From assembly GCA_009746045.1 (NCBI GenBank), contig RPFO01000516.1, positions 1 through 64,000 on the forward strand: a stretch of DNA of 64,000 nucleotides, read 5' to 3'. Below the pieces are notes generated by a model, which saw only the letters and a program-made list of their open reading frames with translations, was not told where the DNA came from and did not search any database. Source of the stretch: Mesostigma viride (Eukaryota; Streptophyta; Mesostigmatophyceae; Mesostigmatales; Mesostigmataceae). Made by a program: the position numbers and the translations under genes. Positions 3,821 through 42,109 of this stretch are shown piece after piece (position 1 is the stretch's first letter; the number at the start of each line of letters is the position of its first letter).

Positions 3821-4975
3821 CCACGTGCTTGTTCCTTGTCAAAGTAGGGAGGCTCGCGGGGTGGGTGGCTGGTCATGCTTGTACCTTATCAAGGGAGGGG
3901 CCCACGTAGGGTAGGTGGGTGGGCATGCGTGTACCTTGTCAAGGGAGGGATTCACGTATGGTAGGTGGGTGCACGAGCTTGGTCCTTGTCAAGAGGCACA
4001 TACGTAGGGTAGGTGAGTGCACGTGCTTGTTCCTGGTCAGGGGAGGCATGGATGTGGGGTAGGCATGTGCACGTGCTTATTCCTTGTCAAGGGAGGGACG
4101 CACGTAGTGTAGGTGAGTTCATGTGCTTGTTCCTTGTCAAAGGAGGGGTGCACATAGGGTGGGTGGGTGCACGTGCTCGTTCCTTGTCAAGGGAGGCATG
4201 CATGTGGGGTAGGCATGTGCACGTGCTTGTTTCATGTCAAGGGAGGGATGCAGGTAGGGTAGGTGGGTGGGCTTGCTTGTTCCTTGTCAAGGGAGGGATG
4301 CACGTACGGTAGATGAGTGCACATGCTTGTTCCTTGTCAAAGGAGGGGGGCATGTGGAGTAGGAATGTGCACATGGTTGTTCCATGTCAAGGGAGGGATG
4401 CAGGTAGGGTAGGTGGGTGGGCATGCTTGTACCTTATCAAGGGAGGGGCGGACATAGGGTTGGTGGGTGCACGTGCTTGTTCGATGTCAAAGGAGGGACG
4501 CATGTGGGGTAGGCATGTGCACATGCTTGTTCCATGTCACAGGAGGGATGCACGTAGGGTAGGTGGGTGCACGTGCTTGTTACTGGTCAGGGGAGGCATG
4601 GATGTGGGGTAGGCATGTGCACGTGCCTATTCCTTGTCAAGGGAGGGACGCGCGTAGTGTAGGTGAGTTCATGTGCTTGTTCCTTGTCAAAGGAGGGGTG
4701 CACACAGGGTGGGTGGGTGCACGTGCTCGTTCGATTCTTGTCAAGGGAGGCATGCATGTGGGGTAGGCATGTGCACGTGCTTGTTCCTTGTCAAAGGAGG
4801 GGTGCACATAGGGTAGGTGGGTGCACGTGCCCGTTCGATTCTTGTCAAGGGAGGCATGCATGTGGGGTGGGGCATGTGCACGTGCTTGTTCCTTGTCAAG
4901 GGAGGGACACAACAGGGTATGTGGGTGGTTTTGCTGGTTCCTTGCCATGGGAGGGACGTAATAGGGTAGGTGAGT
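3821..4975. repeat. 50-bp minisatellite, about 22 units
   Basis: Units share GTGCTTGTTCCTTGTCAAGG, AGGGATGCACGTAGGG and TAGGTGGGTGCAC with a period near 50 bp. Because 50 is not a multiple of 3 and stop codons are rare, several frames stay open and give 50-residue protein repeats. These frames are a by-product of the repeat and are not called as genes. Two units near 4730 and 4830 carry a 3-base insertion. Confidence 0.92.
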
Positions 4976-11884: not shown

Positions 11885-13236
11885 TTAACCCATAGTCCGG
11901 GAATGGGTTTTTGGCATTTTTAGACCCCTGAAAATGGAAAAAATCATAACTCATAGGCCACAACTCCAAATACCCCCAACCAAGGTGCTAGGAGTATCTA
12001 CACTTCAAGGGCTTTCAGAAAATGCAATAATATCCCGAGTCTATTCAGTGCTTTGCAAGATATTTACTGCCAAAGTTGGACAAAAGACGATCATTTTCAG
12101 GCAAGGGAAATCCCCTTAGTAGTTTACCCCTGCAGGGAGGGCTGTAAAAAATTATTCTGGGGTTGGACAATGTCAATAGATAGTGCCACCATGCTTTCCT
12201 TGGGTCAGACCGCACGGATAGCCCATCTGACCTATATAATGCGCTCACTTACGTGTGTGGGTTACGCGCGCGTAAGCAGCCATCCATCAAATGCCACACA
12301 CTTATGCATTGTATACAGCCACATAGGACTGTAAAAAGTGCTGGGAAACAAAGAAGTGCTAAACCAGCACTAACGGAATGGCATCCTCCAAAGAAACACC
12401 ACAAACTGAGCAGATTTGGGGCTAATAGCACTCATACAGCAGGCATGGAAACTTGCTGCAAGAGGCACTGATACACTCGTGCAAAATGGATGTATAAACG
12501 ACAGATTCCCGTGCAAACGACATGCAAACACGTTGCCGTACCTGGCTTGATCACGACCTTGCCGGGTTCTGCTGGCCGGGACCCTCATATCTCACACTGG
12601 CTAATGCTTTCCAGGCATAGGCCGCCATAGCCGCATAATGCATGCATCCAACATTATTACCAGGTTGATGTTCTGTGCAAAGATGACCTATAAACGTATC
12701 CGAATTCACAGGGACGCTGCTGCGGATGTCCCGTACCAAAACTGGGTGCTCGGGCTGGCGCAGACTGCCGGGCCATAAGAAGAAAATCGAAATATGGCTT
12801 GCCATTACTTATCTGGTACTGACGACGAAGAAAGCAGTAATGTCCTACCTGTATTTTACCAATGCTATACATCTGGCCACCCCTGACCTACGAAAATCAC
12901 GCATCATCATTCTGAGCAACATTCTGAACCATTACAAGCCGCGAGACGCAAAATTTCCTTGATAACGGCAAGCTAGCAGCCATATCTCGTTACGCGCGCG
13001 CGCGAGTGAAAATTTCCCGCCAAAGTCACGTGATACTGTCTCAATACACGTTGTATTTACCAGGCTATGGCGAATATTACCCCCAAACCTATGCATCACC
13101 TTCGTCCTTAAGTGTTCCCAGACCCACCGGACCACTGACATCCGTCACAGGCGGCGCGGCGCTCCGGGAATTAAGCGCCGCGCCACCGGGGGTCAAATGG
13201 GGCGATATATCGCCCCATTTCCGGACTATGGGTTAA
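11885..13236. mobile_element. piggyBac-like MITE (TTAA target)
   Basis: TTAA at 11885-11888 and 13233-13236 flanks a 1344-bp element. Its ends are inverted (CCCATAGTCCGGGAATGGG on the left; the complement on the right has one mismatch). A TTAA duplication and CCC ends are diagnostic of the piggyBac superfamily. I find no transposase frame inside. The right end also carries GGGGCGATATATCGCCCC, a perfect 18-bp palindrome. Confidence 0.85.
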
Positions 13237-13885
13237 CAAATCATAATCAGATAGGATTGCAGGGCATAAATGGAAGATGTTAATAAATAATATATAAGCA
13301 TATACACCAAATTTTAGTTGTAATAACTGCATGACCATCATCAAGGAGCGTGCTAATTGGGTGACTGACAATTGGACCACAAAAACTGTCGCGCATTTTA
13401 CCACCGCGTATTTTATACCCCCCACGTATAATACGCGTATTTGAAGTCCACGTATTATACCCCGCACACGTATTTTCCAACCTGGCGTGTACATGGCGGA
13501 TAAGCTGTCGATCGTTTCATAAATGCCGCAAGAAGCTCTCGGGGACTTCCTACGTGTACGCTGCATGGACGACGACTTGACCCTGGCCCAGCAACAGCGG
13601 CGACGGGAGCTATGGCCGACCTACCACCAGCTACGGCAGCTAGAGCGCAGGGGGGAAACCGGTATACTGGAGGCCACTGAGGGGACGTCATCCACGTCGA
13701 CCACAAGCCCTGGCAGGCGCCCCCCGGCTGCACCACCCCAGCAAACCCTGCAATCTTGGGAATACAGCATGCAGTAGTCTAGCTTAGTCAGGCTTGGCTT
13801 AGCACGTGACCCTATATGCGCATGTGTGCCTACAATGGGACTCTCCACGGATGATGAATTTAGCTCAGCCTTGCCTATGCAGAGA

Positions 13886-14335
13886 GGGTGGTGCTGCGTC
13901 ATTTCCCCCAGAAGCCAGGTGAGCCGTGAGACGTCAACCTCCCTTGCCGACGAGCTGAAGGACCAGCTCCTTACCCTCATGCATCCAGGCCTGGTAGGTG
14001 AGGTAGAACTGCGTGGGTACGTGCCACCGCCTTCCCCACTCACGGGATAAGGCGGCTTCCCCACCAGTCCTGCTCACCTTCCCCTCCGGCCTCCCGTGAG
14101 GACAAGCAGCGGTTCCTCTCTCGTCGCAAGCGGTTGCACGACCTCACCTGGACGCTGGACGACGACCTGACCCCCGCTCAGCAGCAGCAGCGACGCGACG
14201 TACCTGTGGCCTGAGGTACCTGTGGCCTGAATACCTCCGCCACAAGCAGGACCCCCAGAAGCCCAAGGTGTACTGGAGGGGCGGGGACCTGATGATTAAC
14301 CACAAGATGTGGACGCCCCCAGCGGGCTAGAATAG
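13886..14335 (+). pseudogene. ORF1p-like protein C-terminal fragment
   Basis: Starts inside the RRM-like domain (GTGCTGCGTCATTTCCCCCA encodes VLRHFPQKP). It runs through DELKDQLLTLM, a KQRFLSRRKRLHDLTWTLDD helix and the YWRGGDLMINHKMW terminus. It is closest to the copy at 40400-40797, with several indels and a small duplication (GTACCTGTGGCCTGA) at 14200-14230. Its 3' flank is interrupted at 14704 by the 8.92-kb element and resumes at 23869. Confidence 0.7.
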
Positions 14336-14460
14336 CTAATAGCCCTAGCTTGTATCGACATTGGTAGTCACTGCCGCTATGGCAGCCATGCTTAGAATGT
14401 TTGCCTAGCTGTGCCAACTTAATTACCTAGTCACGTGCACCGGCCGCTCACGCACGGTAC

Positions 14461-14704
14461 ACAACCAGCCATAGCCTTAGCTTAGTCCTTGTACAGCCAT
14501 GCAACGTCCTGGCTATGATCAGATTACTTGCCCACGCTCCTTGTTATGCCGTGCTCACATGGGTCTTATATTGCACCCACAGACTGCCGGATCGTTAGCG
14601 TGTCCGTTTAGCTAGCGTGCCCGAATGCAGCTGTGGCATGCCTTAGGCATGAAGGAGACTGGGGATCTCTGCCCTTTCTCCTGTTGTGCACACACAGGGA
14701 TTAA
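14461..14704. repeat. left copy of 244-bp direct repeat
   Basis: ACAACCAGCCATAGCC to CACAGGGATTAA. Read base by base it appears identical to 23625-23868. It belongs to the 3' region of an ORF1-only element. The related locus at 40920-41163 has one copy only and differs at many positions. Confidence 0.95.
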
Positions 14705-14719
14705 GGGGACATGACACAT

Positions 14720-16840
14720 TGAAAGTGCACTTTTCTGGAAAACAGACCTGTGCATGGGATAAAAATCCGGTTATGCTTCCAAACCATAAATATGTGAAAA
14801 AAAAAAATTTCCAGCCACTTGGGGGTGGTACTACCCCCCAGCATGACCCAGTTATGAGCTAAAAATAGAAAAAGACGCTATTTTTGGCCGATTTTTCCTA
14901 GGAGACTGGGCAAACCAAAAGTGACCAAACCACATATTTTCCTAAAATCCCCACCCTTGCAAATAAATCTGGCTACTCAGGACCACAAAATAAGCACGTT
15001 TAGACTATTTATAGGGTTTAGCCCAAAACACGTATTTTTTTGGTCCTAAAAAAATAAATCAAATAGTAGACACATGCAAAAATTCCAGTGATGATATTTA
15101 TACTAGGCCTAGGGTGGGAATTTCACTCTCACAAAGTTTGAGCTCATTCTGAGCACGTTTACTCATGTTATTAGTGTAAACATGCAAAAAAAAAATGACA
15201 GAAAATCCGGGTTATGAGCACAAACAACACCCCTTTTACACCCTAGCCAACCACTAACTGGGGCAAACCAGGTGCAATTAATTAATAAAATGTATCATAA
15301 AGCTTGCCACCAAATTACAGGTCATTCTGACCTAGTTTGCCCCTAGTACATCATGTTATAGCTGCCACCCTGCATGCTTGGTACACTGTGGCATGAGGGA
15401 CACCATAAGCACATTCCTAAGCTTGCCCCCTGCAAATTGGGCAGAAGCACGTAAAGAAAATGCTAGATGCTTGAAGAAGACATCCACCGACAAAATCATT
15501 ACGCACGCAGGCATGACCACTTGCGGGAATCACCTCATAGCTAACACCCAGTCATGATGCTAAAGGATAAAAGGGCCATCCTCATAATAAGCACCTGATC
15601 CTTATCATCTAGGAAGCCCCAGCCATGTGTAATGAAAGCAAAACATATTGGAAGGAGATAACTATATAACACATGCTCACCTTCCCTACAACTTCACACC
15701 TTGTTTTCCAGCAGGCTGAAGGGCCAAGACAAGCGTTTATGAGCTCGCCAGCTCCTTGCAACGTTGATGCCGCTCCCAGGCAGCTAGGGTCCTTGACTAC
15801 GCAATATACAACAATGTCTACCATATGAAAAACTCCATAAAAGAAAGTGAAGTAGAGCCGCAAAACTGCCCGATCAACTCTTGCTAGCTTTAAGAAGCAT
15901 GGCATACGCAGGATAGGGCAAAACATTGAAACCTGCGAAAACAGATAGCGCAACTGCAACAAGTGGCGAACAAAATAATAGCAAGAACACCCGGAATCGG
16001 CGCCAAAGCTTCATGCCAGGAACATTTAGAGCGCAAACCGACAGGGCGGTGACATGCGGCAAATGAACGTACCACGGACGGCTTTATTTCCTACCCAGGC
16101 GCGCGAGACAGCCAGCCATCCATGGATGGCTTGACCGCGGATCGCGCAGGCCTGAACGATATCATTTCAGAAATGACGGGAAATGGCCGCAGATCGAAGC
16201 CGCTTAGGATGTTTTCACGGTTTCCATTACTAAACGCTTCTTCCTGCATCAATATAATCCACAAATCTTAAATTCTACAGTCGCAGGCACGCATTCTAAA
16301 TTAATATGTGCGGCCAGATTTTCGGATTAGACCCCCGTGCAAATCTGGATTAACCCGTGTTTTTTTAATTAGAACGCGATATATCGCGTTGTAAGCTTTT
16401 TTTAGAACGCGTATAGCACCTAAGGAAATTTTTTTTTCATGGTCATGTATATACTTTCCTGAAAGCCCATAAATCAAAGGATTTTTTGAGCTACTCAGAC
16501 CTACAAACTGCTTATTCATTAGAGAGATACACTGGTTTGAATACAGGGGGGTCACAACGGTATGAAAGTGCCAAAAAATGCCCTTATAAGCCCTGCACGG
16601 AGCAAAAGAAGTCCAAACATGCTAGATATTGGTAGGCAGCATGTTCAGGACTCTAGTAGAAGGAATTGATTTTCCCAGATTTTTCTGACCTCAGTTGGTC
16701 TATTTTTGGCAGGTCTATTTTTAGCGATTTTCCAGATTTTAATACAAACAAATGCCTTCTTATATGCAAATAAAGAGCTTCTGACCTGGCTGCTTGCCAG
16801 TAGGCTCACGCCCATGACTTCCAACTGTGCACAAGGTCCC
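14720..16840. other. non-coding left arm of the 8.92-kb element
   Basis: AT-rich with A-runs and no supported gene. It contains the perfect 18-bp palindrome AACGCGATATATCGCGTT at about 16372-16389 beside AACCCGTGTTTTTTTA. That word recurs inverted near the right end of the element at 23355-23370. These are plausible transposase-binding or structural subterminal repeats. Confidence 0.6.
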
Positions 16841-16844
16841 ATGG

Positions 16845-17385
16845 TCATCTGACCCCATTTGGTGACAAATTGCCATCAAATGCTAGCAAAAACGCACGTT
16901 TTTCGCGTTTTTTACCACATATTGTTGCGGTTTCCATGCAAGATGTGCCCAGTTGAGCCTGGAAATTTGCATGCATGCTTAAAATCATTATTCTAGACAT
17001 TGCACAAAAATCCAGGTTCATACTATATCAGTTGATGACAGTTTGTCACCAAATGTTAGCAAAAACGCGCGTTTTTCTCCTTTTTCGCCCCAACTCATCG
17101 CAGTTTCCATACAAGATGTGCTCAGTTGAGGCTGGAAATTTGCATGCATGCTTATCACTAACAGTTTAGACATTGCTCAAACATCCAGGTCAATCAGGTG
17201 TCATTTGATGGCAATTTGTCAGCAAATTGTACCGAAAATGCGCGATTTTTGCATTTTATACAAAAATTAATGGCAGTTTTCATACAAGGCGTGCCCAGTT
17301 GAGGCTAGAAATTTGCATGCAGGCTTGACATCACTAGTTTAGACAATGCACAAAAATCCAGGTCAATCAGGTATCGTTTGGTTGG
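16845..17385. repeat. about 175-bp tandem repeat, 3 units
   Basis: Three diverged units share TTTGATGGCAATTTGTCA, an AAAAACGCGCGTTTTT-like palindrome, a TTTCCATACAAGATGTGC word, CAGTTGAGGCTGGAAATTTG and CAAAAATCCAGGTCAATCAG. They lie downstream of the transposase-like gene. Similar words appear at 49700-49960 beside the second gene copy, so the repeat travels with the element. Confidence 0.8.
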
Positions 17386-17752
17386 GTTATATATGCAACA
17401 CATGCCAGTTTCGCTTCTAAAACGCTCACAAATTGAGAGAACCTCCATAGTGCAATATGGTCTACTTCCATTTATATGGCTTGATAACTGTAAAAACCTT
17501 TCATCCATGATGCAATACAACTTTTGTGACACATAAACAATAATTTATTCATATAAACATTGGCTGGACCCAGCTGGCTGTATACCCAAGTGGCCACCCT
17601 GAGGCGATTCCTACGGAGGGGCTTGCTGAAAATAAAATTGGCAGCTGTCACAGGGGCTAGAAGGACTATTCTACACCCACAGCATGCACAGTAGTCCTAA
17701 ACCCTGCCTGGATATGCAACAATTATAGCACACCAGCCATGAGGATTGAGAG

Positions 17753-20082
17753 TCACTCGGCAGGTGGCACGGCGGCGATGCGTTTGCGCGCCCTCATTTC
17801 GGTGTCACTAGGGGGGAGTGGCACCTTCTTGGACAGGTGCTGCCTGACCTTGTCCGCCTTCATGCCTTGCATCAACATGCCCACCGCCATGTTCTTGCCC
17901 TTGGCGTCAGGGCCCAGCTTGGAGCGGTGGTTGGTGCAGGCCTTGGCCTCGGTCTTGCGCACGGAGTGCATGTGCTCCAGCCCCTCTTGAGAGAGGAGGC
18001 GCAGGTCCCCAAACTTGAGGACCTGGGAGGGGATGTGGCAAACAAGATCATGCATGTACGTTGTCACAGCCTCAGGCGTGGCGATTGTCAAGAAAGCATT
18101 GAAAAAAAGCTCTGCATGCTCGTACACCAGATCAGCCTTGGCCGCCCTGTTGGCCCCCCCGGACCATCGTCCTGGAATTCTGGGTCAGAGAGTTCGCCCC
18201 ACAGCAGACCCAAGCTCTGCCAGGCAAACATGATGTTATCCCTGCTTCCCGTGAGAATGCTCCCCAGTTTGTTCACGCACGTCTCATACTTCTGTAGCAA
18301 GGAGATGGCCTCCCTGCCTATTATGTTGGGTTTCTCGGGAGCTCTAGCCGTGGCACTCTTGGAGGTGGCCTTCACGTGCTTGGCCTTGAGATACACCCCA
18401 CACTCCTCATGCAATGTTTTGAGCATCTCCTCCTCCTGGCTTTTCAGCAAGTTTGCCAGTAGGGTGTGGTCAACTAGGGAGCACACGACATTGAGCAGGA
18501 GGTGGAGGATGCAATCAGGGTGGTCGTCGTGCTCGATGGGAAGAATGGGGGTGCAGCCCCACCGCTGGCCATAGTGATCTAGGGCATGTGCAGCAGCCTT
18601 GGTAGGGCTGGGCCTTGTACTTGCAAGCTGGGCCTGCGTGGTGAATGTGACTTTGCATCCTACGCACTTGAAGGGCCCTTGCTTCTCGACATCCCAGACG
18701 TGGGCCAGCTGGCAGGCTATGGTTGTGGTGCGCAGGGGGTATTTCTTGGACTCTTCCAGGTAGCCGAACTTGGCTTTAGGGCAGAGGCATTTGTTGCAGG
18801 GGAATGTATGTGCGCATGTGCTCTGCCCCCTTTCAGCGTTGACGTAGTGCTTGTCTCCCCCCCCTATCACCCTTGTAAGGGGCACCACCCTCAGTGCGTC
18901 GGGGAGAAAGATGCCCTTGTCCTTCATGATGGTGATCAGTTCCCCTAACGTACGCGTGAATGCACCCTTCAACACGTCGTGGTTGCTGTCACAGCCCTTG
19001 TACACAGCCACTGCGCACAAATTGAACGGCGATTGGGCCTTCACCATGAGCTTCAGGTGGGGATCGCTGGGTGTGATGTTGGCGGCTATGGTGGTCTGAC
19101 TACAACCACGGGTGAGGTGGGCTCCATCTACCTGGATCTGAATATCAAACCCACCCGCCAGGTCCAGCTGCACATCGCACACCTTCTCTATATGCGTGAT
19201 GGCCTCAAGGACTCCCGCCTCTAGGCTGGCACTAACAAAGGTACCATCCTCATTCTGCTCCATACCCTTAGCCTTAGCAATCTCGTCATCCAGTTTGTGC
19301 AACTCATAGTTGGTGGGCCACTCAGGGAAGGGCACACCTTTCACGAGTTCCCGTGGCACCCACTCCCCCCTCTCCTCATCCCAAGTGTGACTCAGTGACA
19401 TTCTGAAAAGGTATACATTCCTCCTACTGAGCCTGAACCTCTTGATGAGGCACATCAACAACTCGGGATCCCATGCAGCCTCCATCTTGGCCTTAAGCTC
19501 CCTAGCCAACGTGGTGGCATAGCCAGACTGGTCAAACACGGCTTTGGCTATCTCAGGGTTTGCCTCGAAATACGCGACCAAAGCCTCTACCTTCACTTGA
19601 TCGCCATCATACCGAGAATCCAAGAACCTCTGCACATCCGCCGTGAGCCGCTTGGCCACCCTACCACCGTGGAGGTCAGCAGATGCTGCTAGGCCTACAG
19701 CCCTCTTCTTAACCCTCGTGTGCACGGTGGCCTTCCCCTTGCCCTTGCCCTTGCCAGCATTAAGGATGCCCCTATAGGTGCTGCCACGCTCCCAGCCATC
19801 CTTGACCTTGTGCGTTAGAAGCTCTTCCAACTCATGCACTCGCCCAACCAGGCGGTTAGCATTAGCTTTTGCCTCATCCCTCTCTTTGGTGAGAACTGCA
19901 ATCCTATCTTGCAGCTTAGCAACAATGCGTGGTTGTGCGTGTGCTTCTGGGTGAGCGGCAGTGGCGTTGGGAGTAGGGGGGCTGAGCACGTGAGCGCTAG
20001 TGCTGTCTTCTTGACAAACAACCCCCCCGCACCCCTGAGACTGTGGAGGTTGGCCATCTGGCTTGCTTAAGGCTGCCCACAT
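17753..20082 (-). CDS. RAG1/Transib-like transposase, catalytic exon
   Basis: One protein in two frames, broken by a missing base in a G7 run near 18160. Counting residues from the in-frame ATG at 20100, the N-terminal part has a coiled coil (about 55-95) and a GKGKGKGKA stretch (117-124). A candidate RNase H-fold core follows: QIQVDGAHL (D325), YKGCDSNHDVL (D371), then FPCNKCLC (C435, C438) and FKCVGC (C479, C482). After the break come YMHDLVCHIP (HxxxxH) and DLRLLSQEGLEHMH (candidate E). RAG1 and Transib share this order: D, D, CxxC, HxxxxH, E just after a GxLxxxSxEG segment. I infer a DDE recombinase; the match is by motif, not by search. A related copy at 50560-52225 conserves all these residues except the lead D325 region, which reads QVMADAASL. 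The frame ends at 17753. Confidence 0.65.
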
Positions 20083-20164
20083 CTGCACACATGAAGTCAT
20101 GCATCATAGGGAGAGAAAAAGGCACAAGCAATGCATGAGAAATGAGAAAGCAAGTGACACATAC
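20083..20164 (-). other. probable 82-bp spliceosomal intron
   Basis: On the minus strand GTATGTG follows GATAATAG at 20164, and a pyrimidine-rich tract ends in TGTGTGCAG at 20083. Both sides are coding-like. The 5' exon frame closes at TGA TAATAG just before the donor unless a nearby homopolymer indel is corrected, so the exact phase is unsettled. Confidence 0.5.
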
Positions 20165-21264
20165 CTATTATCAAGAGGGCAGGCTTGGGTTGTTTCGCTG
20201 CCGCTGGCGACACCACGCGTAGTCATTGGCCCATTTACCCTTGCCTCTGGCCAGCAAGCCCAGCCTGAACTGCCTGAATGCTGGTGTTAATGACGCCCTC
20301 TGCTCATCGGTCAGGGTGTCATCATGGGTGGCAAATGCAGCTTGGGTGCCGGCAGGGGGGGCAGCTGGTGTGTTGGCAGCTAGGGGGGAGCTTGCGTGCT
20401 GACAGGGGGGGCAGCTTGTTGTGCATCAGCGTTTGCCGCCCGTGTGGCAGCACGGGTAGCTGGCCTAGGCTGGCCACGTTCCCTCTCGCCGCTCTCACGG
20501 AATGGCACCCTCTCCACAAACCAGTAATTCTCGTAGACAGGGATTTCCTTAAAATGCTTGAGGGCAGATTCTTTGAGCGAAGGAGGAATGGTGGGCACAT
20601 ATGCAGTGGGCTTGTTGGTCTCCAGAGCGCGTGCAGCGGTTAGGCGCCTAAGGAAGGCACCCATTGCCTCGGGGTTTTCCCTACCACCAACCTTGTTGGC
20701 CACAAGGTCAGCCATGTCATGATCCCTTGCCATGAGCACAATGCCCATGTTGTTCAGGACGCACCAGCTAAAGCGAATCAACAGCTTTGTTATCCCCTCC
20801 CCTGTCTGCGTCCATAACAACTTCATGGGCGGCATGACTGCGGCAAGGCTGCCAGCCGACAGCACCTTATTGCCGTTCCAGCACGGCCCCTCCCTTGAAT
20901 CCGAGTGCAAAATCTGCTTGATATCGCTCGTCTCTAAAATGAGCCGCACAGCCCTGATGCGAGCAAATGGCTCGTCAACATGCTGTCGCTCGCTGAAACT
21001 GACGCACTTCCCGAACCTTGAAAACATGACGGAAAAGAGAGACTCGGGGAATGGGGATATGGTAAAATACTTGTCTGCCACAGGTCGGGATTTCAAGAGC
21101 GAGTGAATTCGCCGCTCAATATGCACATACCACTCCGTGACGTCGACCACGGTCTTGCATTTCATGTCCGTGTCGCAGACTCGGCAGCAGAAATTGCTTG
21201 CGGCATTCACATGCTCGCCGCAGTTTGTGCATGTCCGGAGGTTGGTCACCGCCCCTGAGGCCAT
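20165..21264 (-). CDS. N-terminal exon of the transposase-like gene (zinc ribbon)
   Basis: Reads from ATG 21264 (MASGAVTNLRTCTNCGEHV). Residues 11-35 have CTNC and CCRVC pairs, a zinc-ribbon pattern. A 230-residue globular region follows (WYVHIERRIHSLLKSRPV, ARIRAVRLILETSDIKQIL, WTQTGEGITKLLIRFSWCV). Then comes a PFRESGERERGQPRP basic tail with Ala/Gln repeats. A frame shift in a G-run near 20400 leads into TDEQRASLTPAFRQFRLGL up to about 20170. It has the same strand and spacing as the catalytic exon and probably forms one protein of about 1,100 residues with it, close to the length of RAG1. I do not recognise the globular part. Confidence 0.55.
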
Positions 21265-23610
21265 GGGCGTCTTTGGAGCCCAGAAAGCCTGCATGAAACA
21301 TGACGTTCGGGGCAAACGCAAATATATACGAATTATGGGTCTGTCAAGCCTGAAGCAGCCGTGAAATTGGTCGGAAACACGCGGTAGCTCGGGAAAAAAA
21401 ATTGGCAGCGGTAATGAAAAAAGTCGTTCGGTCAAAGTCTTTAGAATTAAAAAATGCGTCGTTCATGACCAATAACCCGATCTTAGGGCGCACTTCATCG
21501 GGAAAATTTTTTGCTGCAGTCAGGTGGGGTCGAGAGAAAATCTGCGAACAAACAAGGACCCACCTTTGAATGGCGCAAGATGCTGTTCGATTCCGCAAAT
21601 TTTATGGCGAAAAAAAAATACTGGTGGATCGAATAACACCGTAGGAGGATGAGCGTAAAATTTCAGCCTTGATAATGCCTTTTTACACGCCCAGCATCGC
21701 CTGCCAGACCGCCATGCCAGTCGCCCGGAATTCGGTCACCGTCGTGCACCCGCACACCAAAATTCGCATTTCGCGCCACTTTTCGCCGGGGTACCGCTTA
21801 CGAGGGCAGATTTTGGCGGGGCTCGTACCGTTGTGGTCTGACCATGACCGCGATTTCTTGACCCACAAGTCATGCGCTTATTCACAAATGGTTCATGAAA
21901 AAAATCTGGCTTCTTGCACGAGCTATGGGCAACATATGCAGGCTCTGTGAAACAAAACTCAGGCCCATTGGGCCACTGGAGCTATTTTTCATTAGCATCA
22001 CAATTACAACGCAGTACAACGCAGTGGGAAACATGAGAGCCCTTGACAACATTACGCAACGACCCGAGCCCCATAAACGGGGCCATAGTGAGCTTGGAGG
22101 GTCAAAACGTTGAACATAGGCGTTGTATAAGTTATACAGCATCAAACATGCATCAAACATCATGACTGGATGACCTAATATGACTGAATCAGGCAGCCAT
22201 AGCCAAAGCATCATCCACTCTCACAACGTGTTGAGCACATGCCTCGTGGGAATGGAGGTGCTGGGTTTTCATTCCATAACGCGTGCAATACTGAAAGAAA
22301 GAGGCACGTGTAATGCAAGGCTTGGATAGGTTGAGTGATCCATGAGCTTACATGCAGGCAAAGATGACGCTGGAATGCATGCTAGCAAATGGTGGCAAGA
22401 TGCTAACAACACATGATTATACACCATGATTATGGGCACCCAGCTGATCTTCTTGCACAATCAACGCAGTATAAACCATCAACATCCAATCCTCACGATA
22501 TATGCACGGCTTGACGACGTATACAGCACCTACATACTGCACAACTGCAACCTGCTATGGCTGACATGCAAGCAACGTCGAGTAGGATGGCGGTCTTAGA
22601 GAGGCTGGGCAGAGGTCGGTAGAAATAAGTGGAAAACTGGCAGAAACTAGGTAGAAACACGATATACTTACGCCTGCAAGCACTATTGAGCCGGTGGCAG
22701 AGGCCATTTCCAGGAAAATACAGCATACCGTAGCAATAGCCACGGTCACGCCTTACGCTATTTGCAGGCACCATCATGCCCGGAGCTACCCAATAAAAGT
22801 CTGCACAAATCTCGGTTTAGCCGAGAGTCCGGGCGTTCGGAATGAATAAACATGTGTTAAGAAGTCGAAACACCATGGAAATACCAAGCATGGTGCCGCA
22901 GCAGACCCGAGTCTTGACGTAATAATATGTATGCCGGTTTCCAGGGTTTCCGCATGAAAGTTGGGTGAGAAACTGGAAAAAACTACGTTTTCTTTGCCCC
23001 AGTACCTCAACAAACTCGTAGAAACCTAATTATCAACCTTTGAACGCATCATCATGGTCGTGCTACCCAACAGCCACTGAAATTCGCGCGAAAACTGGCG
23101 AGATCTACCTGCCGCCATCGCCGTCGTCTTCACCTTCGTCCCGCGAAAATGCCTGATTTCAGTGGTACATATTTGTTTGCAGCTGTCACAAAAAAAATAC
23201 CAAAAATACCAGGATTTTTTCTTGAATTCTATGAGATGTTTCTGACCTGTCTTGAAAGTTTCAGACCAAAAATCGCATGTTTAATAGGTTTGCCACGTGT
23301 CAGATTACAACGCGATACATCGCGTTCTAACCCTACAACGCGATGTATCGCGTTGTAAAAAAACACGGGTTAAGAAAGGCACCGACTTTTCAAATTGTGC
23401 ATATCTGGCTATGAAATATCATACTAGAACATCGTTTAAAACCACCGGCGTACATTTTTCGCTTGTCGCCTGGCCGATAAGGCAAATTTTTACGGAACAC
23501 ACGTCGCCATGGCCACCTCCGCACGAGGTGTGCGCATTGTGCACCACAATTTCACGGTCCGGGGGTACCGACGGTACCGGCGCGAATTTTTTGGCGCCAA
23601 AAAATTCCGA
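21265..23610. other. right arm of the 8.92-kb element, no gene seen
   Basis: About 2.3 kb upstream of the gene, so it probably carries its promoter. The segment 21837-22200 is repeated at 41717-42102 in the deletion derivative. The segment 23285-23370 has two AACGCGAT(A/G)(C/T)ATCGCGTT palindromes. A GGTACCGACGGTACCGGCGC stretch lies just inside the right end. Confidence 0.55.
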
Positions 23611-23624
23611 TGTGTCATGTCCCC

Positions 23625-23868
23625 ACAACCAGCCATAGCCTTAGCTTAGTCCTTGTACAGCCATGCAACGTCCTGGCTATGATCAGATTACTTGCCCACG
23701 CTCCTTGTTATGCCGTGCTCACATGGGTCTTATATTGCACCCACAGACTGCCGGATCGTTAGCGTGTCCGTTTAGCTAGCGTGCCCGAATGCAGCTGTGG
23801 CATGCCTTAGGCATGAAGGAGACTGGGGATCTCTGCCCTTTCTCCTGTTGTGCACACACAGGGATTAA
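23625..23868. repeat. right copy of 244-bp direct repeat
   Basis: Appears identical to 14461-14704. It starts at the base after the right inverted end of the 8.92-kb element and continues without a break into the rest of the ORF1-only element (AAAAGCACTTTGGTGCTCC). The ancestral target can therefore be reconstructed by removing the element plus one repeat. Confidence 0.95.
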
Positions 23869-23878
23869 AAGCACTTTG

Positions 23879-23931
23879 GTGCTCCGTGACTCCCCAACGG
23901 GAGCACGTGTTTAATGAATTAATTAATTAAC
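23879..23931 (+). other. 3'-terminal hairpin and (TAAT)n tail of ORF1-only element
   Basis: GTGCTCC (23879-23885) pairs with GGAGCAC (23900-23906) around the loop GTGACTCCCCAACG. A TTAATGAATTAATTAATTAA tail follows. The same hairpin and tail occur at 39053-39114 and 41175-41228, which fixes the 3' end of the family. Confidence 0.8.
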
Positions 23932-24650
23932 TATGCAGAGAGCTCCTCTCCTCTGGTGAGAACCCATGCCCTAGCCATTGTTTAGCCATGCATGATCGAT
24001 GATCTTCCACCCTCTGTCGCCTTACACTGTAGGTGCTGGAATACATAGCACTTGGTACAGGTGCACCTTGTGCACCCCGAGCAGGAGTAGTTTACACCCT
24101 ACCTTTGCAGGAGGTCTAGCCCAGAATGTATTTAAAGCCATATGCGCCCCGGCCTTCTTAGGGATATATATCAAGGAGACAACCAGCGCATGCAGGCCAG
24201 AAATCGGGAGAATCCAGACCATGGTAGCTCAAGCCTGCCGTTATCTTGTCCGCGTTTTCGAGTCGTTCAGGATGATGAATATTCTGATCAGGCACTCCGC
24301 AAAGGTGAAAACCATTTGCGTACGTTCAGTGCCGGGCCGCGGAAAACGCGGAAAAACGCGATCTGCAAATGAATCCGACCGGAATCGAACTGGGGACCTC
24401 TCGCACCAACTTTCTGATGAATATGAATGGAGATGGAAATGTGGAGCCTTGTGCGTTGAAATTATGGCTGGCTTACGTGTTATAGAGCGACTAGATGACC
24501 TAGACGGTGGGGGCGAAAATAGCTTGCTTGATCAGGGCGTGTGTTTCGAGCCTAACTGGCCGGGAGTGTCTAGTGGTGAGCACCATTGCTGCGATCTGGG
24601 ATATATATGTTCTACATGTACTCCCAACGGAGATATGTTACAATTTGACT
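23932..24650 (-). mobile_element. leader-type segments of ORF1-only elements, inverted arrangement
   Basis: From 23932 to about 24165 the sequence matches, in minus orientation, the leader seen at 39130-39390 (AGAGAGCTCCTCTCCTCTGG, a GGTGCACC box, GCAGGAGGTCTAGCCCAGAATGT). From 24170 to 24510 it matches 8937-9060 and, inverted, 41232-41430. The block ends with an ATGTACTCCCAACGGAGATATG word at 24615-24636. No protein is encoded. Confidence 0.55.
24283..24414 (-). mobile_element. 132-bp tRNA-derived SINE fragment
   Basis: TGATGAATAT at 24273-24282 and 24415-24424 is a 10-bp target duplication, and the related locus at 9030-9050 lacks the insert. On the minus strand the insert begins with a tRNA 3' half: TTGGTGCGAGAGGTCCCCAG then GTTCGATTCCGGTCGGA. 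This contains a B-box-like GTTCGATTCC (Pol III promoter element). The T-stem does not pair well and the 5' half is missing, so this is not a functional tRNA. Confidence 0.65.
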
Positions 24651-30767: not shown

Positions 30768-32542
30768 TGTCCATCTTCCCAGTAAAAGTCCTAAATTTAG
30801 GACCAAGTGGAATTAAAAATATATATATGCAAACATTAAAATTTGACCCTGGCATTCGTGCCCATGACAGATAACACACTTTTTTAGTTTCTATCAAAAA
30901 CCTGGGGTCAAATAATTACATTTAGTGCATGAATGGGCCCTGCCACCTGCCAGACCTCAAAGCGCGAATTTGGCCAAAATGTGGGTTTTAGGACCATTAG
31001 GACCAATTATTGTCAACGCATGACCATGCTATCCACACGGTCCCTTGAGCATCTTACAAGCGCTAGGGGACCCTACGAGGCCTTGGGATGGCGGGGCAGC
31101 GTATAACAAGGCCATACCCTGCTGTGGCTGCCTCTATATATACGCGTGATTAACGGTGTCACAGATGGTGCAGGTAATGCAATATAGGGTTGCATGGTTG
31201 CTGAGGTTGCCCGGCTTGAACATGGCCCACCCCTTGCGGTAAACTTTCTCTAAGCATATGCCAAACCTTCTTTGACATCACGGACATGCTGGCCACCACC
31301 CAGCGATGAAAAAACATTGCATTTGCATTGCAACTAACACATGAATGCAGCCAAATCAAGTTACAAAACAACGTTGTGCTAACATGCAACGCTTTGTGAG
31401 CGAATTCAGGGTGCATGTAACACGTAAACCATACTGTACATACTGTCTGAGAACACCCTGAACGACTGCAGGCCATAGGACCATGGTTTATAACTAACAC
31501 ATGAGTAAAACTGCTCTTACGCATGTGTGTTTTAGCTGCAGCGGACGACGAAGATAGAGACGTAAAAAATTGTATGACGTAAACCAACTATGTGTGACAG
31601 TTATGTGCACAGAGAGCGTCCCCTCTTTTTAGGCATAGCTGGCTGACTCAAAACACCACGACAGCGTTGCCAGTTACACTCATGATCTAGGACAACCCGG
31701 CACTTACCTGCTACTTACGTCGCCTCATTCCAGATGGTTGCAAAAAAGTCGCTGAAATCCGCAGCGAGGTCAGCTTTCCGAGAGCTGAGCGCACCAAAGC
31801 TGGCCAACCGGTTCGACAATGATATAAACCACGCTTGTGCTGCGTTCTAGGTCCAAGAAATACCGAAAGTGAAGACCTATAAGGTGCGCTCGCTGCCCAG
31901 CCTGAACGTCCCTAAAACATGGTCGACAATGGAAATCGGGCAAGAATATCACGGCCCAGGCGCTCCCATGTCAAATACTCCGTTTCTAAACTCCAGACTA
32001 TAATAAAAATCGTCCACAAAAATTTCCTGGCTTGATTCGCACCACCATTGCTAATACACTAACATGTTTGTGCCAAAATCTACCCTCCGCGAGCAGGCGA
32101 TCTGCGACCCATTTGTGTTGTGCCGCTGTGATACAGCGCTACACATAAAAACTTGCGCAGAAAATATTCACAGCCTTTAAGCATAACTAACAACCTTTCG
32201 TTTTTGCTACTGGGCGCCCGAAATGATAAACGCACGTGAAAACGCCGGCCACGATTGTCAGGTCGCCATATCCACCTCACTTCATTCCCGCACCCACTTT
32301 TTCGCTCCAAAATCGGTTATATTTTTGGTCGAGGTACCTACTTTCCCGCCATTATACCTGGTACCCGGGTACGGAATCCGGGTACCATGTGCCGGTACCA
32401 CGGGTCGGGTACATCATGCCGGGTACGGTCCACATGGGGTACGGTCCATATAGTGACCCCCCCCCCCCGGTACCTCGGTTATAGTGACCACTAGGACGAT
32501 TTAGGACAAAGTCCTAAATTTAGGACCGTGGGATGATTAACA
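30768..32542 (-). mobile_element. 1775-bp inverted-repeat element, copy 1
   Basis: Flanked by ATAG at 30764-30767 and 32543-32546 (4-bp target duplication), and removal restores the LINE. The ends are imperfect inverted repeats (TGTCCATCTTCCCAG and, complemented, TGTTAATCATCCCACG). Each is followed by the 16-bp palindrome GTCCTAAATTTAGGAC (30788-30803, 32511-32526). Inside are a GGTACC-rich stretch (32330-32450), a C-run and a 142-residue frame at 31159-31587. A nearly identical inverted copy lies at 42110-43882. It is probably a non-autonomous DNA transposon. Confidence 0.88.
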
Positions 32543-36809: not shown

Positions 36810-37002
36810 GGCGGAGCCAATTTTCGGAAGAACCTCACCCTTATGCTTGCAAATTCGGGACAAATTCGGTGGATGTATGTATGTATGGATGGATGGATTG
36901 ACGGATTTTCATCCCCTATTCCTATGTTTTCTCACGTGTACGGCCTTATAAGCTTCGCCAATTCTGGCGAACCTAACGGTTCTTCCGAAAATTGGCTCCG
37001 CC
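36810..37002. mobile_element. 193-bp MITE next to SufE
   Basis: Perfect 25-bp inverted ends begin GGCGGAGCCAATTTTCGGAA (36810-36834, inverted 36978-37002). The core has a (GGAT)n-like stretch. No convincing target duplication was found. The open frame of SufE extends back to this element but has no ATG before 37289. Confidence 0.8.
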
Positions 37003-37288
37003 AGATAAATTATTTCGTTCCCTTCCTGTTCCCATCGCCTCACAGCAACTCATTTTTTGCCCACGTGCATTCAAAGGCCACGAAAGTCCAAGCCACCAAG
37101 TCCTGGCTTATGTTATATTGGAAAGTAAGATAAGGCATTGTCAAGCCTTTCCTATTGGTACAAGGGTAGAAGCAAAACTTTCTCTTCAGAAATATTTCCT
37201 GGTACAACAGACAGGCAAGAGTCAGGTGTGCCGTGTCTGTCTCCAAGCGGAACCTCGGCTTACAGCTGTAGCCTTGCAGCTTGTCACA

Positions 37289-37966
37289 ATGATGCGTACA
37301 GGGACGGCTATCCGTGCTAGCTTGGCATCTCCATGGTGTGTCGAAGCAAAAATGTCTGCAGCGTCGTCGGTCCGCGGATGCCGCCCATACTCCGCCGTCT
37401 CCCGTGAATCTTGCCGGCAAAGCTTGAAAATTTCACTGACCGCCCCGCTTAAAAGCCGCATGAACTACACTGCGCTGTCGACGCGCAGGTCATGCTCGTC
37501 GAATCGTGTGACGATGATGACCCAGGACGTCGAAGACCTGCCAGAGGCGCTGCAGGCCATTGTCCGAGGTTTCCAAATGGTGCCAGACCCCATGGAGCGC
37601 TACAAGCAGCTCCTTTTCTACGCCTCCAAGCTTCCGCCCATGCCCGACGAAGACCATGTAGAAGAGAACAAAGTCAAGGGATGTGTGTCCCAAGTTTGGG
37701 TAAAACCCCGGATGGAGGACGGGAAGGTGTACTTCACCGCGGACTCTGACTCGCAGCTCACGAAAGGACTGGCCGCACTTCTTGTCAAGGGCTTCAGCGG
37801 CGCAAAGCCCGAAGAAATCGTCCGCGTCACGCCTGACTTCATCCAGATGCTGGGATTGAAGCAAAGTCTCAGCCCATCCCGTAGTAATGGCTTCCTTAAC
37901 ATGCTGAAACTGATGCAGAAGAAAACAGTGGAGCTATATATGGCTACACAAAAGGACACGGCTTAA
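37289..37966 (+). CDS. SUFE: SufE-type cysteine desulfurase activator, plastid
   Basis: 225 residues from the first in-frame ATG (MMRTGTAIRA). SufE accepts persulfide sulfur from the desulfurase SufS/NFS2 and boosts its activity in plastid Fe-S cluster assembly. Residues 1-77 are rich in Ser, Arg and Ala with few acids, a likely chloroplast transit peptide. The SufE fold follows: LPEALQAIVRGFQMVPDPME, RYKQLLFYASKLPPMPDE, then VKGCVSQVWV with the sulfur-accepting Cys132. Next come FTADSDSQLTKGLAALLVKG and VTPDFIQMLGL. It lacks the C-terminal BolA domain of Arabidopsis SUFE1, so it resembles a single-domain form. No intron is needed. The frame is open back to 36992 without a Met, so an upstream exon is possible but not required. 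Confidence 0.93.
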   Translation: MMRTGTAIRASLASPWCVEAKMSAASSVRGCRPYSAVSRESCRQSLKISLTAPLKSRMNYTALSTRRSCSSNRVTMMTQDVEDLPEALQAIVRGFQMVPDPMERYKQLLFYASKLPPMPDEDHVEENKVKGCVSQVWVKPRMEDGKVYFTADSDSQLTKGLAALLVKGFSGAKPEEIVRVTPDFIQMLGLKQSLSPSRSNGFLNMLKLMQKKTVELYMATQKDTA

Positions 37967-38654: not shown

Positions 38655-38755
38655 GATTTTTTTAAAAAAAATTAGAACGCGATATACTGCGTTGTGAGCT
38701 ATTTATAGAACACGTCATAACATCTAGGGAATATTTTTTTCATGGTCATGTGTAT
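38655..38755 (+). mobile_element. fragment of deletion derivative of the 8.92-kb element, left part
   Basis: AATTAGAACGCGATATACTG and TTTTTTTCATGGTCATGTGT match 16355-16455. The match resumes at 41602 after an insert. TGGTCATGTGTAT is present at 38743-38755 and 41602-41614, a 13-bp duplication made when the intervening ORF1-type elements inserted. Confidence 0.75.
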
Positions 38756-38779
38756 TAATTAAAAAAGCTAGTCGAGGAC

Positions 38780-39114
38780 ATGGGGGGCCTAGGCCTCTCC
38801 GTGATTTGGAAGAAGATGATGGACAAGGCCAAGTGGGCCCAGGTCATAGAGGACAACGAGCCCCCCCCAGTGGGGAAGCGCCCGCGTGTGCAATCCCGCG
38901 GCCGGGAGGCACGCCAGATAGCTCCCCCTAGGGCAGCGTGCCTAGATAGATGTTGTAGTTAGAATGCTGCTAGATAGATGTAGTATGTAGCCAATGTAGA
39001 TAGATTAGACCGGTAGGAATGCTTGCACCCATCCATCCATCCATCGGGGTTAATGCTCCGTGACTCCCCAACGGGAGCACGAGTCTAATTAATTAATTAA
39101 TTAATTAATTAATT
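38780..39114 (+). mobile_element. 5'-truncated ORF1-only family member, 3' end
   Basis: A short frame (GGLGLSVIWKKMMDKAKWAQ, 38780-38962) precedes an untranslated segment, a CCAT repeat and the family's terminal hairpin (39053-39080) with a long (TAAT)n tail (39085-39114). The protein fragment does not match the other copies, so it may belong to another member type. Confidence 0.45.
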
Positions 39115-39443
39115 AGGAACATAACTCCGTTGGGAGTGTATGTAGCACATATCCCAGAGAGGGGGCAATATGGCTTTTAATACATTCTAAGCTACTTCCT
39201 GCAAGGGTGGGAATGTAAACGACACTTGCTCTAGGTGCACCAAGGGCACCTGCACCCCCCAGAGTCTCAAGCAACACCCAACTAAGGGGAGCCTGTCATG
39301 GGGGGTGAAGATCATCATCAAGGAGACAATCATGGCTATACAAGAGCTAGGGCATGGCGTCTCAGCAGAGAGTGACTCCCTGCATGGGCACTGCACAGTG
39401 AAATAAAGCTAGGCATCATCTGGAACATGCGCCCTGATCAAGC

Positions 39444-39824
39444 ATGCTGTTTCCGGCCCCAGCCCAGCATGCCGGCTCCCAGCCCAACCCACTCGCCATC
39501 GTCCTTGCCCAGCCGTCTGGGCCTGCCAACCCACCGCCAGCAAACCCATCGCCCAGCGCCTCGCCCGAGCCCAAGAAACCCTGCCACGAACCCAAATGGC
39601 GAAAGTACCTACCAGATTACGAACGCTTTTCTTTCACCAACTGGCTGGAACTGACCAAAGACGAATGCGCCGAAATAGTGCGTTTCTTATCACAGGAACG
39701 CAAGCTCCATGGGGCCGTAGGGCCCATCCCCGCCGACGACCTGGAGGCGTTCCTTGCCGGCCAGGCCAGAGCTCCACCACCGCACCGCCATCATGTGCAG
39801 CTACTTCTGGACAGCTACCTATGA
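39444..39824 (+). CDS. ORF1a of ORF1-only element (Pro-rich)
   Basis: 126 residues. The N-terminal half is Pro/Ser/Ala-rich (NPPPANPSPSASPEPKKP), then WRKYLPDYERFSFTNWLELT and ECAEIVRFLSQERKLHGAVG, which looks folded. The SASPEPK signature recurs at 44260-44300 and 9295-9320. The in-frame start is weak (the first codons are not ATG in every reading), and the true ATG may be 39468 or nearby. The stop TGA (39822-39824) overlaps the next ATG (39821-39823). Function unknown; it may be an accessory or RNA-packaging region. Confidence 0.5.
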   Translation: MLFPAPAQHAGSQPNPLAIVLAQPSGPANPPPANPSPSASPEPKKPCHEPKWRKYLPDYERFSFTNWLELTKDECAEIVRFLSQERKLHGAVGPIPADDLEAFLAGQARAPPPHRHHVQLLLDSYL

Positions 39825-40797
39825 GCACAATTGTCGCCAGGATCCGCACCCCAGCCCAGCCTGTGCGGCCGACAGCCACATCGGCTTCCTCCCTCTGCAA
39901 GGATGACATCCGAGCAGTGCTGGAGGAGCACGTGACCTGGCCGTTGGCCGAGAAGCTGACCTCGCTGAACACCACGCTCAACACGGTGGAGGCCCAGGTC
40001 TCCAATGTGGAAACCAAGGTCGTCCACAAGCTACAACCCCAGTTCACGGCGCTGCACACCGCGGCGCAGGCATCTGAAACGCACGCTGCACTTGTCTCTC
40101 GCCTCAACCAGGTGGAGGGCAAGTGCGGCGTGCTCATGAAGAAGCTTGAAGCCATCACCGCTCACACCGAGGCCCTGGCCTCACAGGTCCCAAAGATAGC
40201 GGAGCAGACGGCCACCATCGCATCCCAGCCACCCCGGCTGGATGCTGGCGACCTCCCGCCCCTCTCCTATGCGGACCTGCTGCGGTCAGCGACCGCCTCC
40301 ACCACCGACGCCATCGCCACGAAGCTCCAGGAGCTGGAGGACCACCGCCAGGCCAACCAACGGGAGGCCACCGACCGCGCTCGCCGCGAGTGCCGAGTGG
40401 TGCTGCGTCGTTTCCCCCAGAAGCCAGGTGAGACGTCAACCTCCCTTGCCCGGACGAGCTCAAGGACCAGCTCCTTACCCTCATGGGCCTGGTAGGGGAG
40501 GTAGAACTGCGTGGGTGTCACCGCCTTCCCCACTCACGGGACAAGGCGGCTCCCCCACCAGTTCTGCTCACCTTCCCCTCCCGTGAGGACAAGCAGCGGT
40601 TCCTCTCTCGTCGCAAGCGGTTGCACGACCTCACCTGGACGCTGGACGACGACCTGACCCCCGCTCAGCAGCAGCAGCGACGCGACCTGTGGCCGGAGTA
40701 CCTCCGCCACAAGCAGGACCCCCAGAAGCCCAAGGTGTACTGGAGGGGCGGGGACCTGATCATCAACCACAAGATGTGGACGCCCCCCGCGGGCTAG
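39821..40797 (+). CDS. ORF1b, L1 ORF1p-like RNA-binding protein
   Basis: Starts MSTIVARIRTPAQ. Residues 30-115 form a long coiled coil (DDIRAVLEEHVTWPLAEKLT, LNTTLNTVEAQVSNVETKVV and on), the trimerisation region of ORF1p-type proteins. The RRM-like domain begins RECRVVLRRFPQKPGE. A 2-base insertion at about 40447 (CCCGGACG against CCGACG in the 13.9-kb copy) shifts frame. The protein then goes on from 40483: VGEVELRGCHRLPHS, a strand PPVLLTFPSREDKQRFL, and a C-terminal domain TPAQQQQRRDLWPEYLRHK ending YWRGGDLIINHKMWTPPAG. The order coiled coil, RRM, CTD is that of L1 ORF1p. Confidence 0.72.
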
Positions 40798-41209
40798 ACT
40801 AGCTAATAGCCCTAGCTTGTATCCATTGGTTGTCACTGCCGCCATGGCAGCCATGCTTAGAATGTTTGCCTAGCCGTGCCAACATACCTAGTCACGTGCA
40901 CCGCTAACCCACGGTACACAACCAGCCATGTAGCCTTAGCTTAGTCCTTGTTGTACAGCCATGCTACGTCTTGGCTATGATCAGTTTACTCGCCCACGCT
41001 CCATGTTATGACATGCTCACATGGGTCTTATTGCACCCACAGACTGCCGGATCGTTAGCGTGTCCGTTTAGCTAGCGTGCCCGAATGCAGCTGTGGCATG
41101 CCTTTGGCATGAAGGAGACTGGGGGTCTCTGCCCTTTCTCCTGTTGTGCACACACAGGGATTAAAAGCACTTCGGTGCTCCGTGACTCCCCAACGGGAGC
41201 ACGAGTTTA

Positions 41210-41601
41210 ATTAATTAATTAATTAATTCCGGCCCCACCGTCTAGGTCATCTAGTCGCTCTACACGTAAGCCAGCCATAATTTCAATGCACAAGGCTACA
41301 CATTTCCATCACCATTCATCTTCATCATCCTGAACGACTCGAACACGCGGACAAGATAACGGCAGGCTCGAGCTACCATGGTCCGGATTCTCCCGATTTC
41401 TGGCCTGCGCTGGTTGTCTCCTTGATCATCTGGAGTGTGGCACATCATAGGCACACATGTACATCATTAAAAATGCTAGGCATCAGCTGGTGTAGTGCCT
41501 GTAGTAGGCGTGCATGTACAAGGCCACGGTCTAACTACTATTCTACACTACTGCTGCTGTATTCCCCTAAGCTGGGGCGTCTGGAGTCGCTGGGGCCGCG
41601 G
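41210..41601 (-). mobile_element. inverted 5'-truncated ORF1-only fragment
   Basis: On the minus strand it starts in the C-terminal codons of ORF1 (CAGCGACTCCAGACGCCCCA, as at 47360). It then passes AGTAGTGTAGAATAG, GTACATGTGTGCCTATGATG, the GGAGACAACCAGCGC leader-type block and a tRNA-like A-box region (CCGTCTAGGTCATCTAGTCG). It meets the plus-strand element tail-to-tail at the (TAAT)n tract. Confidence 0.6.
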
Positions 41602-42109
41602 TGGTCATGTGTATACTAACCTGAAAGCCCATAAATCAAAGGATTTTTTTGAGCTACTCAGCCCTACAAATTGCTAATTCATTAGAGAGGTACACTGGTT
41701 TGAATACAGGGGGGTCTGACCATGACCGCGATGTGTTGACCCTAGGTCACAAGTCATGTGCTTATTCACAAATGGTTCCTGAAAAAAATCTGGCTTCTTG
41801 CATGAGCTATGGGCAACATATGCAGGCTCTGTGGAACAAAACTCGGGCCCATTGGGCCACTGGAGAGCTATTTTTCATTGGCATCACAAACACAACGCGG
41901 TACAACGCAGTGGGAAAAATGAGAGCGCCCTTCACAACATGACGCAACGACACGAGCCCCATAAACGGGGCCACATGAATGAGCTAGGAGGGTCAAAACG
42001 TTGAAAATAGGTGTTGTATAAGTTACACAGCATCAAACATGCATCAAACATCATGACTTGATGACCTAATATGACTCATCGAATCAGGCAGCCATAGCCA
42101 AACACATAC
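41602..42109 (+). mobile_element. deletion derivative of the 8.92-kb element, right part
   Basis: 41602-41716 matches 16440-16548 and 41717-42102 matches 21836-22200 in the same orientation. About 5.3 kb, including the whole transposase-like gene, was therefore lost at a single junction. The second inverted copy of the 1775-bp element then inserted at 42110. Confidence 0.78.

Follow-up and report, generated by a model that had tools for sequence, protein, structure and literature searches.

The window analysed here is a 64,000-nucleotide stretch of Mesostigma viride DNA (assembly GCA_009746045.1, contig RPFO01000516.1). It lies on a contig of 150 kb (C1302) in an assembly of 440 Mb, and the transposon census described below covers the whole assembly. 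Its central feature is a Kolobok-like transposon whose two ends abut identical copies of a 244-bp segment. The 8,920 bp between these copies (14705-23624) carry perfect 15-bp inverted ends: 14705-14719 reads GGGGACATGACACAT, and 23610-23624 reads its reverse complement. The preliminary description of this DNA took the 8,920 bp to be one element; the inverted repeats found inside, together with separate TTAA and GGTC duplications, divide it into three nested elements, i.e., the outer Kolobok-like element, a second TTAA element within it, and a third within the second. Without its nested insert the outer element measures 1,900 bp, and its longest listed open reading frame (ORF) has 117 amino acids.

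A letter-by-letter comparison of 14461-14704 with 23625-23868 gives 0 differences over 244 positions, and the two copies abut the perfect inverted ends exactly as first described, to the base. A 245th base is common to both sides (C at 14460 and 23624) because the element itself ends in C. The repeat closes with TTAA, the actual target of the family; the 240 bp before it (14461-14700) are referred to below as D0. Chance is far too weak an explanation for a 244-bp identity bordered exactly by a perfect 15-bp inverted pair; the inverted pair is not decisive by itself, because the window contains 65 exact inverted pairs of at least 15 bp within 12 kb, many of them inside repeats. When the flanks are joined (..14460 to 23625..), they align without a break to a paralogue at 40391-41260. 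This related locus had been said to hold the segment once and in diverged form, and it does: its single copy (40920-41164) aligns to the 244-bp part with 231 identical, 9 mismatched, and 9 gapped columns. Since the window copies are identical and the paralogue is divergent, the segment was duplicated at this locus, either recently or with later homogenisation.

The host of the insertion is a single 5'-truncated copy of long interspersed nuclear element (LINE) type, split into a left and a right part (Table 1), the latter with an ATTA-rich tail, and bracketed by a 12-bp target-site duplication, CTATGCAGAGAG. The segment therefore does lie inside one older insertion, as had been proposed, but this insertion is the truncated LINE-type copy and not an "ORF1-only element." Because the 12-bp duplication brackets both flanks, these stem from a single insertion at a single locus. 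The paralogous LINE copy (39462-41226) is bracketed by its own 11-bp duplication, and other LINE relatives are 83 to 88% identical over the adjoining left part, the redundant contig C1175 aside (40 of 6172 candidates scored). Three other sources of the direct repeat were ruled out. A mixture of two LINE paralogues, whether from assembly or from ectopic recombination, is incompatible with the same 12-bp duplication on both flanks. The repeats are not the long terminal repeats (LTRs) of a retroelement, as the 244 bp are colinear inside the paralogous LINE, which differs from the two copies although these match each other fully. Since the left copy is missing precisely the 62 bp added in the right one, a second LINE insertion with 5' truncation is excluded as well.

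A normal insertion at this site would yield the order D0-TTAA-[element]-TTAA-AAGC, whereas the order observed is D0-TTAA-[element]-D0-TTAA-AAGC. By the order of bases, the left junction is canonical and only the right one aberrant. The right end is joined at GGTAC/ACAACC (a slash marks the joint), where there is no TTAA, and a second copy of the 240 bp that precede the left TTAA sits between this end and the right TTAA. At their outer borders, both copies agree with the paralogue, and no excision footprint is present. The right element end is intact to its last C, and it is joined with at most 1 base of microhomology, which points to a transposase-made end. A 244-bp tandem duplication that existed beforehand (D0-TTAA-D0-TTAA), with insertion at the TTAA closing the first copy, would give nearly this structure; however, after a canonical insertion the right end would be separated from ACAACC by TTAA, and none is present there, the paralogue holds one copy, and the coincidence of the repeat border with TTAA would be due to chance. 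We regard this origin as very unlikely.

The census used the exact 15-bp end as its query and thus samples the copies that carry it. This end occurs 87 times, as 38 facing pairs and 11 single ends. In the raw count, redundant contigs included, 80 of the 87 ends adjoin TTAA, and 34 of the 38 facing pairs duplicate exactly TTAA, the duplication expected of Kolobok. Merging entries from the same locus (L064 with L062, by both flanks; L053 with L037; the single end L077 on C1175 with the window left end) leaves 36 independent two-ended loci, and with the window excluded, 32 of 35 duplicate exactly TTAA. The three exceptions, L040, L055, and L059, each have TTAA at the left end only. No direct repeat of more than 16 columns was found over about 2.5 kb of flank in L040 and L055, and no 14-mer is common to both flanks of L059 over 600 bp; the flanks of L040 do contain an 84% repeat of 266 columns, which is inverted and not direct. 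Two further loci, with TTAA at both ends, have offset stretches in common between their flanks (up to 600 bp compared): 17 bp in L052 and an 89-bp repeat with a transfer RNA-like stretch in L068/L069, whose ends are 35 kb apart. Three single ends (L081, L082, and L084) lack TTAA; the 11 single ends cannot reveal a flanking duplication.

The preliminary description regarded the repeat as a 244-bp duplication made at insertion, and named direct repeats of 100 to 300 bp around other copies as what would make this a general feature of the element. Not one of the 37 other facing pairs is flanked at both ends by an adjoining long repeat. Long staggered cuts by the transposase, with 244-bp duplications as a property of the family, would agree with the precision of both ends and with the target-site-duplication polarity of the repeat, but the 4-bp duplications at nearly all other independent loci and the position of the right end away from TTAA make this extremely improbable. 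The duplication itself is real, while its standing as a target-site duplication typical of the element is refuted. For seven further insertions in the window, whose ends were set from alignments, the duplications measure 4, 4, 12, 11, 4, 4, and 13 bp.

Insertion of two family members at a distance of 244 bp, one on each homologue, followed by crossover or haplotype mixing that joined them, could also produce the observed order without a footprint, and the 12-bp duplication of the host LINE would permit such an allelic exchange. The second insertion would have to lie at GGTAC/ACAACC, without TTAA, against the strong preference of the family ends for TTAA. In addition, strain CCAC 1140 of M. viride is described as homozygous from k-mers (PMC7027972), and NIES-296 is described with a "haploid genome" of 5 chromosomes in a report that also presents PacBio data for this strain (PMC6947507). 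We give this explanation little chance.

The window copy is an ordinary member of its family in sequence. The family comparison covers 34 of the 37 other facing pairs (the remaining three have ends 19 to 35 kb apart), and 33 of these 34 whole copies match the 1,900 bp over 1,888 to 1,900 bp at 95 to 99.6% identity. A consensus was built from 23 copies shorter than 2,000 bp (with both members of L062/L064 and of L037/L053 retained; the remaining 11 of the 34 are longer), and the window copy differs from it at 15 of 1,897 positions (0.8%). In other collections, a longer pattern of the 15-bp end has 1 match among viral_contigs and 2 among genome_contigs. Some loci are represented by more than one contig in the assembly, namely, the left side of the insertion (repeated on C1175) and those of the pairs C2032/C1912 and C91/C1702. 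C1175 is 98.35% identical to the window, with 47 gap columns in 3,037; nearly all differences are gaps, as in an unpolished contig. At L081 (C1579:7036467-7040067), the GGGGACATGACACAT end continues via CCC into an apparent CCCATAGTCCGGG terminus of the other TTAA family, as if two element ends had been fused at common C residues.

Elements of the piggyBac superfamily also use TTAA and have CCY...RGG termini; the outer element shares the TTAA but not the termini, which read GGGG...CCCC. One family member, L036 (C25:833615-837443), is 3,829 bp long and has the same terminal inverted repeats and a TTAA duplication; its end regions are 91 to 93% alike to those of the window element, and its interior is different. 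Two overlapping ORFs of L036 match the Pfam family PF20700, "Mutator-like transposase" (E values of 1.5e-14 and 3.5e-12), whose proteins we take to include Kolobok transposases, and neither matches any piggyBac transposase profile. A PHD finger match in L036 is weak and falls below the Pfam cut-off. L036 is therefore a plausible candidate for an autonomous relative of the outer element; 148 matches to PF20700 are listed in this genome. A TTAA duplication combined with 5'-RR...YY-3' termini is given as the signature separating Kolobok from piggyBac (PMC9587614), and the termini of the outer element, with TTAA directly outside, are of this type. The Kolobok superfamily and its non-autonomous T2-MITE members are likewise described with a 4-bp TTAA duplication and GG...CC termini (PMC9587614), and a Xenopus Kolobok terminus includes GGACATG (PMC6004289), a motif also found in the window element. 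Unlike Kolobok, the window element has 1.9 kb without a long ORF and an aberrant right junction. By these sequence features, the outer element is assigned to a TTAA-targeting, Kolobok-like family as a 1.9-kb member without a long ORF.

We favour an ordinary TTAA insertion in which the right end either never became joined or was cut, with repair then taking 240 bp from a version of the site that lacked the element, and we put the probability of this reading at about 0.7. The left end joined the TTAA at 14701-14704 in the canonical way; the right end would either have stayed unjoined at insertion (one-ended insertion) or have been the only one cut when an excision later failed. The right chromosome end (TTAA-AAGC...) would have been extended leftwards by about 240 nucleotides on an element-free copy, such as the sister chromatid, and the extended end joined end to end to the intact terminus of the element. 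The product, L-D0-TTAA-[element]-D0-TTAA-R, would match the order observed, and the "244-bp duplication" would consist of 240 bp of repair synthesis plus TTAA. The repair template was probably this same site, because D0 is identical locally over 240/240 positions and the paralogue carries the mismatches and gaps given above; the comparison over D0 took in one other LINE copy, namely, the paralogue. Among the alternatives named in the preliminary description, a repair-coupled insertion is favoured because the left junction is canonical and the right one is not; the widely spaced nicks it also named are not favoured as a trait of the family.

The second D0 could instead stem from the assembly, through a mis-joined path or a chimeric read, in which case the true right junction would be CCCC/TTAAAAGC with a plain TTAA duplication. 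Such an error has to be reckoned with because the right junction has one witness in the assembly: CCCC/ACAACC has one exact match in the genome, in a search that would overlook a second, unpolished contig carrying errors at this joint. Redundant contigs are also present, C1175 ending inside the element and the other two pairs having flanks in common. However, the junction coincides with the very last base of the element, a position for which a random chimera would have no preference; the window contains no N, and C1175 independently gives the left junction. We consider an artefact unlikely.

Several points weigh against repair of a single end. A single sequence does not reveal in which order the events took place, and a failed insertion and a failed excision are indistinguishable. 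Neither an element-free allele nor a canonical right junction of the window locus was found in the assembly, and the right flank has one full-length match, which is the window itself (40 of 7522 candidates scored). The ends without TTAA at L040, L055, and L059 show no comparable direct repeat, so that the proposed repair outcome is seen once.

HERV-K is a retrovirus family without a fixed target sequence, whereas in the window element TTAA specificity exposes one junction as the only abnormal one. Published cases already exist of long direct repeats next to mobile elements whose usual duplications are short (PMC5488345, PMC3744419). HERV-K (HML-2) is likewise a short-duplication family with rare copies between long direct repeats; repeats of 111 and 250 bp are reported there as confirmed against the empty allele, with estimates up to 450 bp, and the authors also discuss "pseudo-TSDs" (target-site duplications) arising from later rearrangement (PMC5488345). 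A long direct repeat around an insertion is also described in Helicobacter pylori, although this is a bacterial gene insertion (PMC2869330). In maize, direct repeats of 116 to 1,262 bp lie beside hAT elements, and in 2 of the 3 cases one junction lacks a matching target duplication (PMC3744419). Reversed-ends transposition was invoked for these three natural duplications, and by analogy, alternative transposition or unequal recombination with a second copy beside D0, later excised, might be proposed for the window. The maize process needs two element copies, and the duplications described there retain a second copy or a piece of it (PMC3744419); the window has one, with none beside either copy of the segment, and both outer borders match the paralogue without a footprint. 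This route is accordingly rated as highly improbable. Among the titles listed in a limited literature search on long duplications beside transposons, none concerns Kolobok.

With repair of one end as the preferred explanation, the supposed 244-bp target-site duplication drops off the list of strange insertion chemistries; in a family with a fixed target such as TTAA, a junction without the target marks the misrepaired end. More tentatively, and with considerable doubt, Kolobok-type ends may at times resolve via one-ended insertion or excision with synthesis on the sister chromatid, giving occasional duplications of hundreds of bases next to elements whose own enzyme produces no more than a 4-bp duplication. 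If so, the same route could account for the rare long duplications of HERV-K, and such events would be easy to count genome-wide by TTAA specificity because one junction retains TTAA and the other does not. Further half-canonical junctions with local repeats, if found, would provide natural counts of one-ended transposition and repair. We know of no experiments on one-ended transposition in this alga, although the literature was not searched for them.

The second TTAA element, which we presume to be piggyBac-like from its termini (CCCGTGTTTTTTTA), has a repeated 25-bp near-palindrome close to its ends. Relatives of it lie at 38670-38755 and 41602-42102, split by an insertion (38756-41601) with a 13-bp duplication, and the latter relative shows the empty site of the third element. 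The third element carries a 670-amino-acid ORF (18088-20100, minus strand) that has no Pfam match at E values up to 10 and no convincing relative among solved structures (best E value, 0.48). Among the best 8,000 candidates scored, three relatives were found, all named Mesvir1; over the part compared, 377 of 378 residues are identical to those of a Mesvir1 protein of Mesostigma viride. Between the outer and inner elements, the similarity of the ends is weak and was given no weight: in three of six comparisons, 57, 19, and 8 of 500 shuffles were as good, and in the other three, 300 to 490 of 500. Two of the six comparisons were with the second TTAA element, and the inner right end was taken 4 bases short.

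Table 1. Coordinates of the duplicated segment, its host, and the nested elements in the window (a slash marks a joint)
Feature	Position	Strand	Basis
D0, original copy, 240 bp	14461..14700	+	Identical to 23625-23864
D0, second copy, at aberrant right junction CCCC/ACAACC	23625..23864	+	240/240 versus 14461-14700
TTAA target, canonical left junction TTAA/GGGG	14701..14704	+	80/87 family ends abut TTAA; same on C1175
TTAA leading into right flank AAGCAC..., like empty site	23865..23868	+	Identical to paralogue across junction
Host LINE 12-bp duplication, left, CTATGCAGAGAG	13875..13886	+	Exact repeat of 23931-23942; both abut ends of paralogue homology
Host LINE-type copy, left part	13887..14704	+	Colinear with 40397-41164
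Host LINE-type copy, right part and tail	23869..23930	+	Matches 41165-41226
Host LINE 12-bp duplication, right	23931..23942	+	Exact repeat of 13875-13886
Left terminal inverted repeat GGGGACATGACACAT	14705..14719	+	Perfect versus reverse complement of 23610-23624
Outer Kolobok-like element, left part	14705..16353	+	Matches to family copies
Outer element, right part with terminal inverted repeat 23610-23624	23374..23624	+	Inverted-repeat match and family comparison
Nested second TTAA element, ends CCCGTGTTTTTTTA, including TTAA duplication	16350..23373	.	18-bp perfect inverted repeat including TTAA
Nested third element, DNA transposon-like, ends ACAACGGTA	16554..21834	.	GGTC duplication 16550-16553, 21835-21838

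Elsewhere in the window, a small TTAA-flanked inverted-repeat pair with ends CCCATAGTCCGG spans 11885-13236. Two LTR-like copies (TG...CA, about 1.77 kb) lie in opposite orientation at 30768-32542 and 42110-43882, with duplications ATAG and ATAC, and the inverted pair that encloses them is 99.3% alike. Long tandem arrays of imperfect repeats, with units of 50 bp and 43 bp, occupy 3822-4939 and 54395-55059, and an ORF with a SufE domain (36992-37966; E value, 7e-45) resembles a host gene among the transposons.

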